DNA from: Alphaproteobacteria bacterium AO1-B
GTDB lineage: Bacteria > Pseudomonadota > Alphaproteobacteria > Rhizobiales > Stappiaceae
Assembly: GCA_001890945.1 (NCBI GenBank)
Contig: MLAX01000003.1
Span: forward strand, 186,001-250,000
DNA length: 64,000 nt
Direction: 5' to 3'
This document shows, piece after piece, positions 3,685 through 48,804 of the stretch. Below the pieces are notes generated by a model that saw only the letters and a list, made by a program, of their open reading frames with translations, did no database searches and had not been told where the DNA came from. The position numbers were made by a program, and so were the translations under genes. Each line of letters starts with the position of its first letter. Position 1 is the first letter of the stretch.

Positions 3685-6372
3685 ATGGTCGTCGATTGGA
3701 TCGCAAATATTGGCGCTCTTTCGTTGGGCGCGTTGGCGTTCTACTTCTTTGCGCGCCGGGATACCTTGCACGCGCGCCGGTCAGTAAGCGCGGCATTCCT
3801 TGGCGCTTTGTTTGGCCTCCTGTCTGCTTTGGTCGTAATGATGCCCGTTCATTTTGGCGATGGTGCAACGTTCGACACGCGGGCTGCTCCGGCGATCCTT
3901 AGCGGATATTTCCTTGGGCCTTTGGGGGGGATCATCACGGCCAGCATCGCAGGGGCTGCCCGTTATTGGGTCGGTGGCCCATTTGTGATTGGCGGCAGCC
4001 TTAGCCCGTTTTTTTACGCGGCATTCGGTGCCATAGTCGGGGCCTGCTGTCGTCATCGTGATCTCGGCCCAGGTCCCTTGCGGCTTTTGTCCATTGCGGT
4101 TGTTGGTACGCTTTTCGTCCTTCCGTGTTTCTTCATTGATAAAGGCGTTGAGGCGGGGCTCCAGATCCTCGAAAACGCTTGGTACTTGCTGCTAGTTGGA
4201 AACGTGGTCGGTGTGGTCATTCTTGGCCTGATGATCAGCGAGGCCAAGAAATTCTCCGTTGAGCACAAGGCGCTCAAATCCACGCTCTTTCTGACTGATC
4301 TCGCCCGGTCATCTGCTGGAATTGCTGTGTGGCGGTTCGATATGGCTGCCAATCGTCTCACCTGGGACGATGCAATGTTTCGGTTGTTTGATGTCGATCC
4401 CGGGTCTTTCAAAGGCGAGTTTAATGACTGGGAGCGGACCGTTCACCCCGATGACATCGATGCAGCCCGCCGGCAATTCCTGGAGGCCTATGAGAAGAAA
4501 TCCGGGTTCGCCACCGATTTTCGTATCGTCCGCCGGGATGGCAGCGTCCGCTGGTTGGCCGCCCATTGTAATTTTCTTGAAGACGATGCCGGCAACGTTA
4601 CTGAAGCCGTCGGGGTGAATTGGGACATCACAGACAGCAAGGAAATGGCGGACAGTCTCTTTGAAAGAGAAAAGGAAGCACGCCTTCGCTCAGAAGAGCT
4701 GGAAGTCACCTTGGCATCGGTTGTACAGGGTGTCAGTGCGTTTGATAAGGATGGCAGACTGCGCTTTTGCAATGATCGTGCCGGGGATTTTACGGGGCTT
4801 CCGCCAGAAATGCTTGTGCCGGGCACGTCCTACCACGCCTACAACCAGTATCGGCTAGGCGCTTTCGTGACCGGATTTCCAGGAGAGACCACAAAAGCTG
4901 TTCCTGAGAGTGCCCAGCCTACCTCACACATTCGCTCGTTAATCCACCTGTCCAATGGCCGGATTCTGTCTTTTTCCGCAGCTCCAATGCCGGACGGCGG
5001 ATGGGTGGAGACCTATGAAGATGTCACCGAGAAAGTCGTTGCGGATGAGCGCGTCAAAAAAGCCGCTGAAACAGATAACCTGACCGAACTGGCCAATCGA
5101 TTGTCCTTCCGGGAGACTTTGGATCACGTCGTAGAAAATGCCGGGAATGTCGATGGGGTGTCGCCATCGCTGCTGCTCATTGACCTAAACGACTTCAAGG
5201 CAGTGAACGACAGTCATGGCCATGTCGTCGGCGATCGTTTGCTGCAACATGTTGCCAATACCCTGAAAGCGGTCATCGAAGGTGGTGATCTTGCGGCCCG
5301 TTTGGGCGGCGATGAGTTTGCGCTTGTGCTCAAGCCGCGCGCGGAGGAAGACATCCGCGAGATTGCTTCCGGTTTGTGCGCCGCTTTCGACATGCCCGTT
5401 AATCTCGACGGTCTCATGGTTCAGAGCGGACTGAGCGTTGGAGTGGCTATCATTACCGCGGATGGTGCCGGTTCTGAAGAAACACTCTCACGCGCTGATC
5501 TGGCGCTTTATAAGGCCAAGCAGGAGAAAAGATCTGCGTACCGTGTCTTTGACGCTGATATTGCGCGGGAAGATGCGGAGCGGAAGCGAACGAAGAACGC
5601 TCTGATCCGCGTGGTGGAAAATCAGGGTCTTGATGTTTTTTGCCAGCCGATCTTGAACCTGGAAACACATAGGGTTGATCACTTCGAGGCTTTGGTTCGT
5701 TGGCATCAGGGCGAGGCAAGTTATGTCCCCCCGTCAAATTTCATCCCCCTGGCCGAAGAGATTGGCCTGATCGTGAAGGTTGGCGATTTTGTTCTGTCTG
5801 AAGTGTTGCGTTCCCTGGCAACCTGGCCGGACGATTACCGCGCCTGTGTGAATGTCTCGGTTTTGCAGCTTGGCGATGGACGATTTGTCGAACGAGTTCT
5901 TGGCGGTCTAAAAGCAGCTGGAATTTCTCCGCATCGCCTGGAACTGGAGTTGACCGAGAGTGTCTTGATGTCCGCAGGTTCAGCCGCTCATGAGGATCTC
6001 AGAAAATTGCGAGATGCTGGTCTGAACCTGGCCTTGGACGATTTCGGCATCGGCTTCTCGTCATTTGGCTATCTGCAGGAACTGCCATTCAACAAGCTCA
6101 AGATCGACCGCAGGTTCGTTTCGGAAGTCGAAAAAGACGAGGGCAGTGCAGCGATTTTGAGAACGATCGCGGCGCTTGCTGACAATCTGGATATGAAGTC
6201 GACGGCCGAAGGCGTCGAAACGGCTCAGCAGTTGGGCGTGGTGAGAGCTTGCGGATGCCACTACGGTCAAGGCTACTTCATCGGTCAGCCAATCCCGCTT
6301 GAGGATGTGCAACAGGCGTACTTTGAGGTTCCCAAAGTTGCCAAGGCTGCGCTTAGAGTGGGTCGCGTTTAA
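3685..6372 (+). CDS. Membrane GGDEF-EAL protein (5TM sensor-PAS-PAS-GGDEF-EAL)
   Basis: An 895-residue cyclic-di-GMP turnover protein. Residues about 1-190 form several membrane helices of the LytS/YhcK 5TM-receptor type (GYFLGPLGGI, then RYWVGGPF). Two PAS domains follow at about 205-330 and 340-450. The cyclase domain has an intact GGDEF (residues 541-545). The phosphodiesterase domain has EAL (668-670), ELTE, DDFGIGFSS, KIDR and EGVE, so both activities look possible. No RxxD inhibitory site precedes GGDEF (EGGD instead), so product inhibition is not expected. ATG 3685 has AGAAAGG just upstream. The last codons (LRVGRV-stop) fall inside the left terminal repeat of a MITE-like element, so the native C-terminus may have been replaced. 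Confidence 0.9.
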   Translation: MVVDWIANIGALSLGALAFYFFARRDTLHARRSVSAAFLGALFGLLSALVVMMPVHFGDGATFDTRAAPAILSGYFLGPLGGIITASIAGAARYWVGGPFVIGGSLSPFFYAAFGAIVGACCRHRDLGPGPLRLLSIAVVGTLFVLPCFFIDKGVEAGLQILENAWYLLLVGNVVGVVILGLMISEAKKFSVEHKALKSTLFLTDLARSSAGIAVWRFDMAANRLTWDDAMFRLFDVDPGSFKGEFNDWERTVHPDDIDAARRQFLEAYEKKSGFATDFRIVRRDGSVRWLAAHCNFLEDDAGNVTEAVGVNWDITDSKEMADSLFEREKEARLRSEELEVTLASVVQGVSAFDKDGRLRFCNDRAGDFTGLPPEMLVPGTSYHAYNQYRLGAFVTGFPGETTKAVPESAQPTSHIRSLIHLSNGRILSFSAAPMPDGGWVETYEDVTEKVVADERVKKAAETDNLTELANRLSFRETLDHVVENAGNVDGVSPSLLLIDLNDFKAVNDSHGHVVGDRLLQHVANTLKAVIEGGDLAARLGGDEFALVLKPRAEEDIREIASGLCAAFDMPVNLDGLMVQSGLSVGVAIITADGAGSEETLSRADLALYKAKQEKRSAYRVFDADIAREDAERKRTKNALIRVVENQGLDVFCQPILNLETHRVDHFEALVRWHQGEASYVPPSNFIPLAEEIGLIVKVGDFVLSEVLRSLATWPDDYRACVNVSVLQLGDGRFVERVLGGLKAAGISPHRLELELTESVLMSAGSAAHEDLRKLRDAGLNLALDDFGIGFSSFGYLQELPFNKLKIDRRFVSEVEKDEGSAAILRTIAALADNLDMKSTAEGVETAQQLGVVRACGCHYGQGYFIGQPIPLEDVQQAYFEVPKVAKAALRVGRV

Positions 6373-6621
6373 TCGGTTTCATTTGACCGAGACGAATTTT
6401 GTTTCTGGCGAGACGTGGTCCGCGCGGTGGTGCGGGGTACCATAAGCGGACCACAACAAAGCCAGAGGCAAAAATTGTCCGGCCCGAAGGATGAGCTTAC
6501 TGAGCCCATCGGCCGCGTTGCGACGTTTGCCCGGCCAACCAGGCCGCGCTTCACGACGCGCCTTGCCGAATGAACTCAGTAAGCTCATCAAATGAACCCG
6601 ATTAAACGCGACCCGCTCTAA
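6353..6621. mobile_element. MITE-like palindromic element with 34-bp terminal inverted repeats
   Basis: 6353-6386 and 6588-6621 are inverted copies that match at 32 of 34 positions (both contain GGGTCGCGTTTAATCGG). Two further nested dyads lie inside: GTGGTCCGC at 6415-6423 against 6446-6454, and GATGAGCTTACTGAG at 6490-6504 against 6575-6589. No transposase frame is present, so this is a non-autonomous element of about 269 bp. The left repeat supplies the stop codon of the GGDEF-EAL gene. I do not see a clear target-site duplication, so the exact ends are uncertain. No other copy is visible in this window. Confidence 0.65.
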
Positions 6622-6644: not shown

Positions 6645-6674
6645 AAAAAAAAGCCGGGTCTTAAAAGACCCGGC
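6645..6674 (-). terminator. Intrinsic terminator, minus strand
   Basis: The stem GCCGGGTC (6653-6660) pairs with GACCCGGC (6667-6674), and the A8 run at 6645-6652 becomes a U-tract on the minus strand. It lies about 450 bp beyond the lsrB-like stop codon, directly after the candidate small RNA, and most likely ends that RNA. Confidence 0.85.
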
Positions 6675-6775
6675 AGTTTGAATTGATTCACTGTAACCAG
6701 TGGAATCACCTTCCAGAGGGGAACAGCTGGTCGAGGCATCACTGGGAGGAGGACGTGATGCCTGTGTGACCAACA
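6645..6775 (-). ncRNA. Candidate trans-acting small RNA with CCTCCTCCC (anti-SD) loop
   Basis: On the minus strand three features follow one another. First is an 8-bp hairpin (plus-strand arms 6735-6742 and 6755-6762) that displays CCUCCUCCC in its loop (6744-6752), inside a longer imperfect stem (TTGGTC with GACCAG). Next is a second hairpin at 6684-6708 with one bulge. Last is an intrinsic terminator at 6653-6674. A TATAAG box at 6782-6787 would place transcription start near 6775, giving about 130 nt. The shape (exposed anti-Shine-Dalgarno loops, Rho-independent end) resembles the alphaproteobacterial alpha-r14/NfeR1-like and CcsR/cuckoo small RNAs. No convincing coding frame spans it. Exact ends and family are inferred. 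Confidence 0.65.
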
Positions 6776-6781
6776 GTGATG

Positions 6782-6787
6782 CTTATA
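6782..6787 (-). promoter_or_regulatory. Putative -10 element of the candidate small RNA
   Basis: TATAAG on the minus strand, about 7 nt before the first structured base of the RNA. A weak TTGTTT-like -35 lies about 19 nt upstream, so the spacing is not ideal. It is supported mainly by its position. Confidence 0.35.
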
Positions 6788-7126
6788 TGCAGTGCACAAG
6801 CTGCTTAAACAAGAGGCAGTGACGCAGATCTGCTATGCAAATCGCGCAGGGCTTTGACCGTCCATAGATTTGTTAGTTTTCTGAGTGAGTTACAGGCTGA
6901 GGATCACACCAGACACCCGCGCTCGAGCGTCTGTAGGGTGGATGTCTTGTTGCGCATTCAGACCCGGCTGCTCTCAATAAAACTTGGTTCGTAGCCGCAA
7001 TGCTCATCACAACAGCACGGTGCCGAGAGTTGCCCGAACAAACCATACTTACCGAAAGACAGATGCAGGGCCGCCGTTCCGTCTGGTTGCGAGTGTAACC
7101 GATGCTGGTCGCTCGAGGGCTTTCTT
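6788..7126. other. Intergenic stretch without recognised features
   Basis: The 339 bp between the small-RNA promoter and the stop of the lsrB-like gene hold no convincing frame, tRNA or strong hairpin. It may serve as the 3' untranslated region of the LysR gene and upstream control of the small RNA. Confidence 0.4.
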
Positions 7127-8023
7127 TTAGTACACCCAGTTTTGGGCGTTCTTCAGAAGGAATTCCCGGAAAGCCGTGACCCGTGCGGTGTTCTTCAACT
7201 CCGACGGATACACGAAGTAGGTATCGAAGGACGGCACCTTGTCTTCCTGATCTTCAAGCACGGGAACCAAGTTCCGGCCATTGTCGATGATGTAGTCTGG
7301 CAACATCGCAATACCGGCGCCTGTCTGAACAGCGCGCTTGATCGCGATGATGTTGTTGACCTGGAGCACCGATTGCCGCGGTTTGCCATCCACTCGGCCG
7401 GCTGTCACAAGCCAGTTCATGGATCGCAGATAGGCAGGGGCCTGTTCGCCAAAGGTGATGATGCGATGATCATCAATGTCTTCGATCGAAGAAGGCGCGC
7501 CAAAGCGCTGGATATATTCAGGTGACGCAAATACGTGAAAGTGCACGGTGAAGAGTTTGCGTTGTATGAGATCCGGCTGAGTCGGTTGGCGCAACCGGAT
7601 CGCCACATCGGCTTCGCGCATGCTGAGATCGAGCTCGTCGTCGTCGAAAATCAGCTGCAATTCGACATCCGGATAAAGATCCGTGAAGCTTCGGATCCTG
7701 GATGCCAGCCAGGTTGACCCCAATCCAACCGTGGTCGTGACTTTCAAAACGCCAGACGGCTTGTCCTTGCTGTCCTTGAGCCTGGATTGCACGGCCTCCA
7801 GCTTCATCAGGACATCACCGGCAGTGCGATAGAGAAGTTCGCCTTGTTCCGTTAGCAGCAGGCCGCGGGCATGCCGGTGGAACAGGGGAACCCCCAGATC
7901 ATGCTCAAGCGCACTGACCTGACGGCTCACCGCGGATTGGCTCATATGAAGCGTATCGCCCGCATGGGTGAAGCTGCCGGCTTGCGCGGCAGCATGGAAG
8001 ATACGCAATTTGTCCCAATCCAT
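7127..8023 (-). CDS. lsrB: LysR-family regulator, LsrB/VtlR type
   Basis: A 298-residue LysR regulator with an N-terminal winged HTH (MDWDKLRIFHAAAQAGSFTH, then LSQ-like MSQSAVSRQVSALE) and a substrate-binding-like effector domain. The N-terminus and the position next to trxB match LsrB of Sinorhizobium and VtlR of Brucella, regulators of envelope and oxidative stress and of small RNAs. I chose ATG 8023 because the conserved MDWDK start is there and GGGGAA precedes it; the frame extends to 8089. The product has no cysteine at all, so redox sensing through cysteines, as I recall being proposed for rhizobial LsrB, cannot apply. It lies 34 bp downstream of trxB, probably in one operon. Confidence 0.85.
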   Translation of the reverse strand: MDWDKLRIFHAAAQAGSFTHAGDTLHMSQSAVSRQVSALEHDLGVPLFHRHARGLLLTEQGELLYRTAGDVLMKLEAVQSRLKDSKDKPSGVLKVTTTVGLGSTWLASRIRSFTDLYPDVELQLIFDDDELDLSMREADVAIRLRQPTQPDLIQRKLFTVHFHVFASPEYIQRFGAPSSIEDIDDHRIITFGEQAPAYLRSMNWLVTAGRVDGKPRQSVLQVNNIIAIKRAVQTGAGIAMLPDYIIDNGRNLVPVLEDQEDKVPSFDTYFVYPSELKNTARVTAFREFLLKNAQNWVY

Positions 8024-8057
8024 GGCATTCCCCAATCCGTCCAGCCGGGAAACTGCG

Positions 8058-9074
<1,017 letters not shown>

Positions 9075-48024: not shown

Positions 48025-48804
48025 TTAACCGCCGTAGATGTCGAAGTCGAAGTACTCCTTGGAGAACTCTTCGTATGTGCCGTTGACGCGGATCGCGGCA
48101 ATTGCTGCGTTGATCTTTTCTTTCAGCTCATCTTCGCCCTTGCGCAGGCCAACGCCCACACCGGCGCCGAGAATGGCCGGATCATCAGCCACATTGCCCT
48201 TGTATTCGCAGCATGCGCCTGCGTCAGACTTCAAGAATGCGTCAAGAGCGATGGCGTCTGCCTGAACCGCATCGACCCGGCCGGCTGCCAGATCCTGATT
48301 GGCTTCGTCCTGTGTCTGGTACTGCTTGATGTCGTCAGCGGTCGGAGCGAAATACTTGTCCGCGTAGGCCGCATGGATTGTGGAGACCTGAACGCCAAGG
48401 ATCTTGCCGGACAGACCTTCCGGCGTTGCTTCGAAATCGTCACCCTTGGCGCCGATGATGCTGGTCGGCGTGTTGTAATACTTGTCGGAGAAGTCGATGG
48501 TTTTCAGACGTTCTTCGGTGATCGACATGGAGCCGACGATCATGTCGATCTTGCCGGAAGTGAGCGCTGGGATGATGCCGTCCCAGGCAACCGGGGTGAT
48601 GACACAATTGAGCTTTGCTTCCGCGCAGATTGCTTCCATGAATTCGACTTCCCAACCGACCCAATTGCCGCTGGCATCCGGGGAGGTGAACGGCGGGTAC
48701 GGTTCTGCAGCAACGCCGACTTTGACATCTTGCGCCTGGGCGCCGGAAATTGCTGCAACGCTCACCGCGGTTGCCACAAAAGCTGCTTTGATCATGTGTT
48801 TCAT
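48025..48804 (-). CDS. Polar (basic) amino-acid ABC transporter substrate-binding protein
   Basis: A 259-residue periplasmic binding protein with signal peptide AAFVATAVSVAAISGAQA (cleavage near residue 24) and the fold typical of the lysine/arginine/ornithine/octopine group (VGVAAEPYPPFTSPDASGNW, then WDGIIPALTSGKIDMIVGSM). The ligand is probably a cationic amino acid, judged by the family and the aru-type genes across the divergent promoter; the binding pocket was not modelled. A 165-bp gap separates it from the ATPase gene. Confidence 0.9.
   Translation of the reverse strand: MKHMIKAAFVATAVSVAAISGAQAQDVKVGVAAEPYPPFTSPDASGNWVGWEVEFMEAICAEAKLNCVITPVAWDGIIPALTSGKIDMIVGSMSITEERLKTIDFSDKYYNTPTSIIGAKGDDFEATPEGLSGKILGVQVSTIHAAYADKYFAPTADDIKQYQTQDEANQDLAAGRVDAVQADAIALDAFLKSDAGACCEYKGNVADDPAILGAGVGVGLRKGEDELKEKINAAIAAIRVNGTYEEFSKEYFDFDIYGG

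Follow-up and report, generated by a model that had tools for sequence, protein, structure and literature searches.

The question raised by this locus is whether the DNA following the LsrB/VtlR-type gene of Alphaproteobacteria bacterium AO1-B encodes a small regulatory RNA and, if so, to which of the known families that RNA belongs. The window, as the term is used here, is the whole 64,000-nucleotide stretch of DNA that was analysed. A sequence-only reading had proposed, on its minus strand, an RNA with an exposed anti-Shine-Dalgarno (anti-SD) loop that would mask ribosome-binding sites, might answer to the neighbouring VtlR-type regulator and would be kin to the alpha-r14/NfeR1 and CcsR/cuckoo RNAs.

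A structured anti-SD RNA with its own terminator

The elements of the RNA, all on the minus strand, are the following.

6645..6776, minus: putative AbcR-type (alpha-r15) small RNA of about 132 nt, predicted 5' end good to +/- 3 nt; assigned from fold, ar15 score, covariation and model R1 (see below)
6726..6774, minus: stem-loop 1, outer stem, GUUGGUC (6768-6774) paired with GACCAGC (6726-6732)
6735..6762, minus: stem-loop 1, inner stem GGCATCAC/GTGATGCC, 8 bp (6755-6762 with 6735-6742), loop GTCCTCCTCCCA
6706..6726, minus: core CTGTTCCCCTCTGGAAGGTGA, containing anti-SD motif 2 (TTCCCCTC, 6716-6723)
6685..6707, minus: stem-loop 2, from fold and covariation
6645..6674, minus: Rho-independent terminator, 9-bp stem (6653-6674) followed by T8 (6645-6652)

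Read from 5' to 3', the RNA thus consists of stem-loop 1, the core CTGTTCCCCTCTGGAAGGTGA, stem-loop 2 and the terminator, and a promoter block extends the locus to about 6838, giving tighter bounds than those first proposed. The first hairpin of the minus-strand RNA exposes CCUCCUCCC; anti-SD motif 1 (CTCCTCCC) sits in its loop, and the 8-bp stem presents CCTCCTCCC at 6744-6752 as the sequence-only reading had described. The second hairpin that it placed at 6684-6708 was found at about 6685-6707, and its strong intrinsic terminator with U8 was recovered by a terminator scan, which returned two sites (one hairpin read on both strands) where shuffling led one to expect 0.9. The folding energy of the RNA (6648-6778) is -55.8 kcal/mol (z = -6.46), and none of 200 shuffled sequences was equally stable. 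A small hairpin covering anti-SD motif 2 can be drawn in the consensus structure as well as in the single fold. The RNA is overlapped by four short reading frames (28-54 codons, with TTG or GTG as start), which are unlikely to be coding because the indels in the family alignment are not multiples of three. The presence at this place of a structured anti-SD RNA with a terminator is therefore confirmed.

Conservation and covariation

Homologues were collected with a BLAST query of 221 bases (RNA plus promoter; E up to 0.001) in 101 genomes, the window's own included. Matches were obtained in 66 of them: 44 of 45 from the genus, 15 of 16 others from the family and 7 of 40 further genomes of the order. 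The sixteenth of the other family genomes (G053) was recovered by a covariance model, bringing that draw to 16/16. One genus genome (G020) has kept lsrB but gave no match to covariance model R1 better than E 0.33; the DNA that follows its lsrB stop is different. Among named species of Roseibium (Hyphomicrobiales, Stappiaceae), the LysR gene with the RNA downstream is carried by R. hamelinense, R. polysiphoniae, R. aggregatum, R. sediminis, R. limicola and R. aestuarii, and full-length matches of at least 117 bits were found in 8 of the 15 named or MAG loci searched. The window's LysR protein is identical over 320 residues to a protein of Labrenzia sp. R4_2; Labrenzia and Roseibium are described as merged genera. 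The family to which these genomes belong (f1) is taken to be the Stappiaceae.

Across 53 distinct homologues, pairing is kept in 96.4% of pair cells, as against 28-44% in slid-control alignments, and 21 of the 33 pairs have changed on both sides. None of 500 shuffles reached any of five measures of structure conservation. Double-sided changes affect all 8 modelled stem pairs of stem-loop 1, leaving TCCTCCC in its loop unchanged in 53/53 sequences while the one or two bases preceding it vary; all 5 modelled pairs of stem-loop 2 covary as well. The core CTGTTCCCCTCTGGAAGGTGA is nearly invariant in the 53 relatives, two of which (L096 and L101) are short of one C. The sequence-only reading had named the loss of the hairpins and CCTCCTCCC in close relatives as a refuting result. 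No such loss was seen: the hairpins and the TCCTCCC segment are kept, although some relatives do not have CCTCCTCCC in full.

An insertion resembling a MITE lies at positions 6356-6618 of the window (263 bp, terminal inverted repeats of about 34 bp, TA duplication at 6354-6355 / 6619-6620), between a GGDEF-EAL gene and the abcR terminator, and replaces the last residues of the GGDEF-EAL protein. The site is empty in the close relatives L031 and L033 and filled in L032. In G020, an inverted-repeat element (L197, about 2408-2525) whose ends are similar to those of the window's element directly follows the lsrB stop.

Assignment to the alpha-r15/AbcR family

The candidate was compared with Rfam by cmscan at a permissive threshold. 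It scored 31.4 bits against ar15 (cut-off 40) and 25.3 bits against ar14 (cut-off 58.8), both below the gathering cut-offs; that of ar15 is an annotation threshold rather than a biological feature. The candidate is the best ar15 match in its own genome, and the core at 6706..6726, around anti-SD motif 2, matches the ar15 consensus GUUCCCCUCUGGA exactly. No entry named CcsR or cuckoo occurs among the 11 Rfam matches listed for the candidate at E up to 10.

In the sources consulted, the AbcR RNAs of S. meliloti are 114-121 nt long with three hairpins, and AbcR carries an anti-SD sequence in the loop of the first hairpin plus a second motif (PMC8844928). The candidate has the same layout: three hairpins, the last of them a Rho-independent terminator, and motif 2 (UUCCCCUC) between stem-loops 1 and 2, next to an lsrB/vtlR gene. 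With AbcR1 of S. meliloti and A. tumefaciens (alpha-r15, RF02345) it thus shares the two anti-SD motifs in the same places, the three hairpins and the terminator, and, as far as the AbcR1 reports describe it (PMC8844928, PMC7486931, PMC3712013), the trxB-lsrB/vtlR-abcR order, together with a near match to the VtlR/LsrB-type box at about -61 to -49. It differs in that its stems and spacing have diverged, hence the score below the Rfam cut-off, and in being found as a single copy in the genome, whereas AbcR1 of the known system belongs to a tandem pair. Judged by its sequence, the RNA is a divergent AbcR1 (alpha-r15) orthologue of Roseibium: a known kind of RNA, and an expected find.

The kinship with alpha-r14/NfeR1 (RF02344) proposed by the sequence-only reading did not hold. 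Alpha-r14 RNAs share with the candidate the CCUCCUCCC sequence in a hairpin loop and the Rho-independent end. However, they are described as having the anti-SD sequence in all hairpin loops (PMC7143759), whereas the candidate has it in the loop of stem-loop 1 only. Moreover, ar14 proper is represented in this genome by a separate tandem pair, with matches at G000:C11:795916 (64.8 bits, above the cut-off) and 796645 (54.8 bits, below it). Membership of alpha-r14/NfeR1 was rejected on the presence of this pair, the sub-cut-off ar14 score and the higher ar15 score. The broader class named in the earlier reading, a trans-acting anti-SD RNA with a Rho-independent end beside a VtlR/LsrB gene, stands.

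The alpha-r14/NfeR1-type pair spans G000:C11:795916-796757 (L060), on another contig of the same genome. A weak second ar15-like match occurs at G000:C4:417070-417192 on the plus strand (L010; 22.9 bits, E 0.04); the first 600 bases of this locus hold a reading frame resembling an ammonium transporter.

Spread of the family in the order

Covariance model R1 was built solely from the alignment of the window family. It found matches in 182 of 397 genomes of the order (71 of 141 genera); the Rfam ar15 model matched 88 of the 397 at E up to 0.01, 25 of them above cut-off, and none of 14 control genomes. All 25 genomes with an above-cut-off ar15 match were also covered by R1 (lists compared by eye), and at the 20 loci tested the two models coincided every time, R1 scoring 19 to 66 bits. 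Because of this coincidence in 25/25 genomes and 20/20 loci, R1 and Rfam ar15 describe one family, so that the window RNA is homologous to Rfam-positive ar15 members. At the named Roseibium loci L015, L017 and L018, AbcR was recovered by R1 and nothing above cut-off by the Rfam model. The Rfam cut-off is tuned to close members, and the AbcR family, going by the R1 matches, is more widespread than the public RNA model shows.

At the weak end, the separation of ar15 from ar14 by R1 is not clean on these 20 test loci: the genome's own ar14 pair scored 22.1 and 17.2 bits, and the three weakest of the ar15 loci 19.1, 19.3 and 23.8. Since the pair scores alike and R1 was counted without control genomes, some of the weakest matches in the order may be due to chance or to other anti-SD RNAs. 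Forty-eight distant places outside the family, hand-picked to spread over families rather than drawn at random, were inspected further; the table of these places omits four weak extra matches, one of them nearby and the other three overlapping a listed locus on its opposite strand. A LysR gene on the same strand accompanies 32 of the 48. The relaxed and strict forms of the promoter box defined below were counted, by eye, at 30 and 21. Nine of the 48, in families f18, f20, f25, f29, f45 and f50, have no same-strand LysR gene beside any match. The tandem locus L170 of family f24 (probably the Rhizobiaceae) scored 127 and 119 bits with ar15; it has the same lsrB, and each of its two RNAs is preceded by a box.

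Weak R1 matches (19-25 bits) were also seen on the opposite strand over the RNA locus, at L162 98-237 (+), L189 3096-3212 (-) and L017 4257-4391 (-). They probably stem from symmetric hairpins.

AbcR RNAs are described in most Rhizobiaceae and Brucellaceae (PMC8844928, from the part consulted). No publication on AbcR in Roseibium, Labrenzia or Stappia was found among the literature matches listed. The wider spread may already be in print, since a review dedicated to AbcR in Rhizobiales appears in the reference list of PMC7143759.

The adjoining regulator and the promoter box

Upstream of the RNA, on the same strand, lie these features.

6782..6787, minus: -10 box TATAAG, largely conserved in the family alignment
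6808..6813, minus: weak -35-like CTTGTT, partly conserved, missed by a strict scan
6826..6838, minus: VtlR/LsrB-type box GCATAGCAGATCT, at -62 to -50 if +1 is 6776
7127..8089, minus: LsrB/VtlR LysR-type regulator, likely start ATG at 8023, cysteine-free
8058..9026, minus: trxB, thioredoxin reductase, TIGR01292 above cut-off

The genes follow one another on one strand in the order trxB-lsrB-abcR, and 354 nt separate the last lsrB codon from the RNA. The same order is reported for A. tumefaciens (PMC7486931). A same-strand LysR relative lies upstream of the RNA in 53 of 59 family loci; in the other six, no LysR gene occurs within the flank examined.

The TATAAG box of the sequence-only reading is in place, and a strict sigma-70 scan found no promoter at the RNA locus; a -10 box with only a weak -35 would suit an activated promoter. 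AbcR1 promoters are described as carrying a box, GCAT-N3-TG-N3-T, at -61 to -49; in S. meliloti, promoter activity fell more than 22-fold when this box was removed (PMC8844928). The window's GCATAGCAGATCT stands at the right place and differs from this consensus at one fixed position, which is T in the published AbcR1 consensus and A or T in the family loci. When relaxed accordingly (GCAT-N3-[AT]G-N3-T), the box is present in 59/59 family loci, which were found with a BLAST query that included the box region, at -62 to -64 from the first aligned base of the RNA; the strict form is present in 16 of the 59, and about 1% of shuffled upstream DNA contains the relaxed form. The DNA just upstream of the box is not conserved across these loci, whereas the box is kept. 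Control of the RNA by the VtlR-type regulator, as the sequence-only reading had suggested, is probable from the adjacency of the gene and the conserved box.

In the literature, LsrB control of AbcR1 is well supported and disputed in one species. AbcR1 was lost in a vtlR mutant of A. tumefaciens, and AbcR RNAs are reported as unchanged in an lsrB mutant of S. meliloti (PMC7486931), contrary to PMC8844928. AbcR2 is described as independent of LsrB in A. tumefaciens (PMC7486931) and in S. meliloti (PMC8844928).

The window LsrB aligns at 412 bits with the chain in PDB entry 9hh1, which is the LsrB of A. tumefaciens studied in PMC11975290. LsrB of the known AbcR1 system has C144 and C273; the window protein lacks both, the corresponding residues being valines 162 and 293. 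The window protein is entirely cysteine-free, as are 44 of 54 family proteins and 16 of 32 from outside the family. Among 94 aligned proteins, some of them from the same species, the full cysteine pair occurs in L170 and L191 alone, which belong to f24; a further three proteins of f24 show the C144 equivalent only, and L161 (f16) the C273 equivalent only. Agrobacterium LsrB is described as a thiol redox sensor; in A. tumefaciens, the H2O2 resistance that depends on LsrB requires its C273 (PMC11975290). Since the window LsrB is cysteine-free, it cannot use this thiol switch.

Predicted targets

Complementarity to the two motifs was scored in the 25 nt upstream of the start codons (assigned by script on the best SD) of the genome's 57 ABC-transporter binding-protein (SBP) genes; the controls were 47 other window genes (52 minus 5 SBP genes). 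For PF00497, 33 matches were obtained and the 30 with loci were used. Of the 57 SBP genes, which are paralogues and not independent, 14 have a stretch of 7 nt or more that is exactly complementary to motif 2; none of the 47 controls has one (p = 1e-4). At most 5 of the 57 were hit by any of 300 shuffled motif 2 probes, and when probes were slid along the RNA complements peaked over the two motifs only. A first-ATG rule gave the same direction (11/54 against 0/40, p = 0.0014). Motif 1 complements of the same minimal length were not significantly enriched (8/57 SBP genes, 3/47 controls, p = 0.17), and whole-duplex energies did not differ between all SBP genes and controls (p = 0.43 and 0.29). 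Uncorrected differences in duplex energy were seen in two subsets, LivK type for motif 1 (p = 0.014) and SBP5 type for motif 2 (p = 0.023). SDs also tend to be somewhat stronger in the SBP genes than in the control set (p = 0.013).

The best candidate site in the window precedes an SBP gene.

48025..48804, minus: predicted target, SBP_bac_3 ABC-transporter binding protein, PF00497, 127 bits
48805..48815, minus: predicted site AGGGGAACAGC, adjoining the ATG on its 5' side and exactly complementary to the anti-SD 2 region over 11 nt

An orthologue of this gene with at least 81% identity was available from 10 of the 45 genus genomes, the window's own included; all ten retain 9 to 11 nt of the site, while the leader upstream of it varies. 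At the other 20 of the 30 loci compared (relatives of 43-55% identity), where the scripted start is often wrong, the exact match spans 4 to 9 nt. Part of the conservation of AGGGGAACAGC could reflect selection for translation, since the site overlaps the SD.

Weighing the readings

That the RNA belongs instead to the alpha-r14/NfeR1 (or CcsR/cuckoo) group is highly improbable. The shared loop motif CCUCCUCCC, the sub-threshold ar14 score and the R1 scores of the true ar14 pair speak for it, but that pair is a distinct locus, the candidate has one anti-SD loop instead of all and scores higher with ar15, and its synteny with lsrB is that of AbcR. A second alternative is that the locus is only the terminator and long 3' region of an lsrB or trxB-lsrB mRNA, with no separate RNA, as the common strand and the distance of 354 nt past the last lsrB codon might suggest. 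Against it, a conserved -10 box and an activator-type box lie immediately upstream of the RNA itself, its hairpins covary around invariant loops, and independent AbcR transcripts are reported for S. meliloti (PMC3712013). We regard this too as very unlikely.

An AbcR relative that has been freed from LsrB, expressed either constitutively or by way of a different activator and leaving the gene order as a relic, is unlikely in its turn. One known input is gone with the cysteines of LsrB, six distant families have matches with no same-strand LsrB found beside them, and the LsrB independence of AbcR2 offers a precedent. Against these points, the box, unlike the sequence immediately before it, is kept at every family locus, and lsrB and the RNA have remained neighbours in 53 of the 59.

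The preferred reading is that the locus encodes the Roseibium orthologue of AbcR1, which would be activated by LsrB and would repress the mRNAs of ABC-transporter binding proteins at their ribosome-binding sites; we consider it very likely. The LsrB/VtlR protein made from the upstream gene, itself preceded by trxB, would bind the GCAT..G...T box at about -62 to -50 and thereby activate transcription from the weak abcR promoter. The RNA, probably with Hfq, would then use loop motif 1 (CUCCUCCC) or motif 2 (UUCCCCUC) to pair with mRNAs for binding proteins of three types (branched-chain amino acid, polar amino acid, peptide), and by covering their ribosome-binding sites would block their translation. 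GcvB of enterobacteria, a single RNA that silences many ABC-transporter binding proteins, is a functional analogue; no sequence relation is claimed.

Three things raise the find slightly above routine: its broad distribution within the order, the conservation of the promoter box and a regulator free of cysteine. It is possible, and we offer it tentatively, that LsrB-AbcR is an ancient module of the Hyphomicrobiales, serving chiefly to restrain the uptake of amino acids and peptides, in which thiol sensing arose late in Agrobacterium, Sinorhizobium and Brucella while another signal is used elsewhere. Confidence in this view is held down because only half of the LsrB relatives outside the family are wholly cysteine-free. 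If the view is correct, LsrB proteins lacking the C144-C273 pair, in Roseibium and other lineages, would drive AbcR in response to something else, such as a metabolite in their LysR substrate domain, and the cysteine-free protein raises the question of what is sensed when thiol redox sensing is impossible. In the sources consulted, AbcR has been studied so far for symbiosis and virulence. The occurrence of RNA, regulator and box in marine Stappiaceae, and of the RNA in nearly half of the sampled genomes of the order, suggests that the device is an old one serving nutrient economy, and that host association was built on it later.
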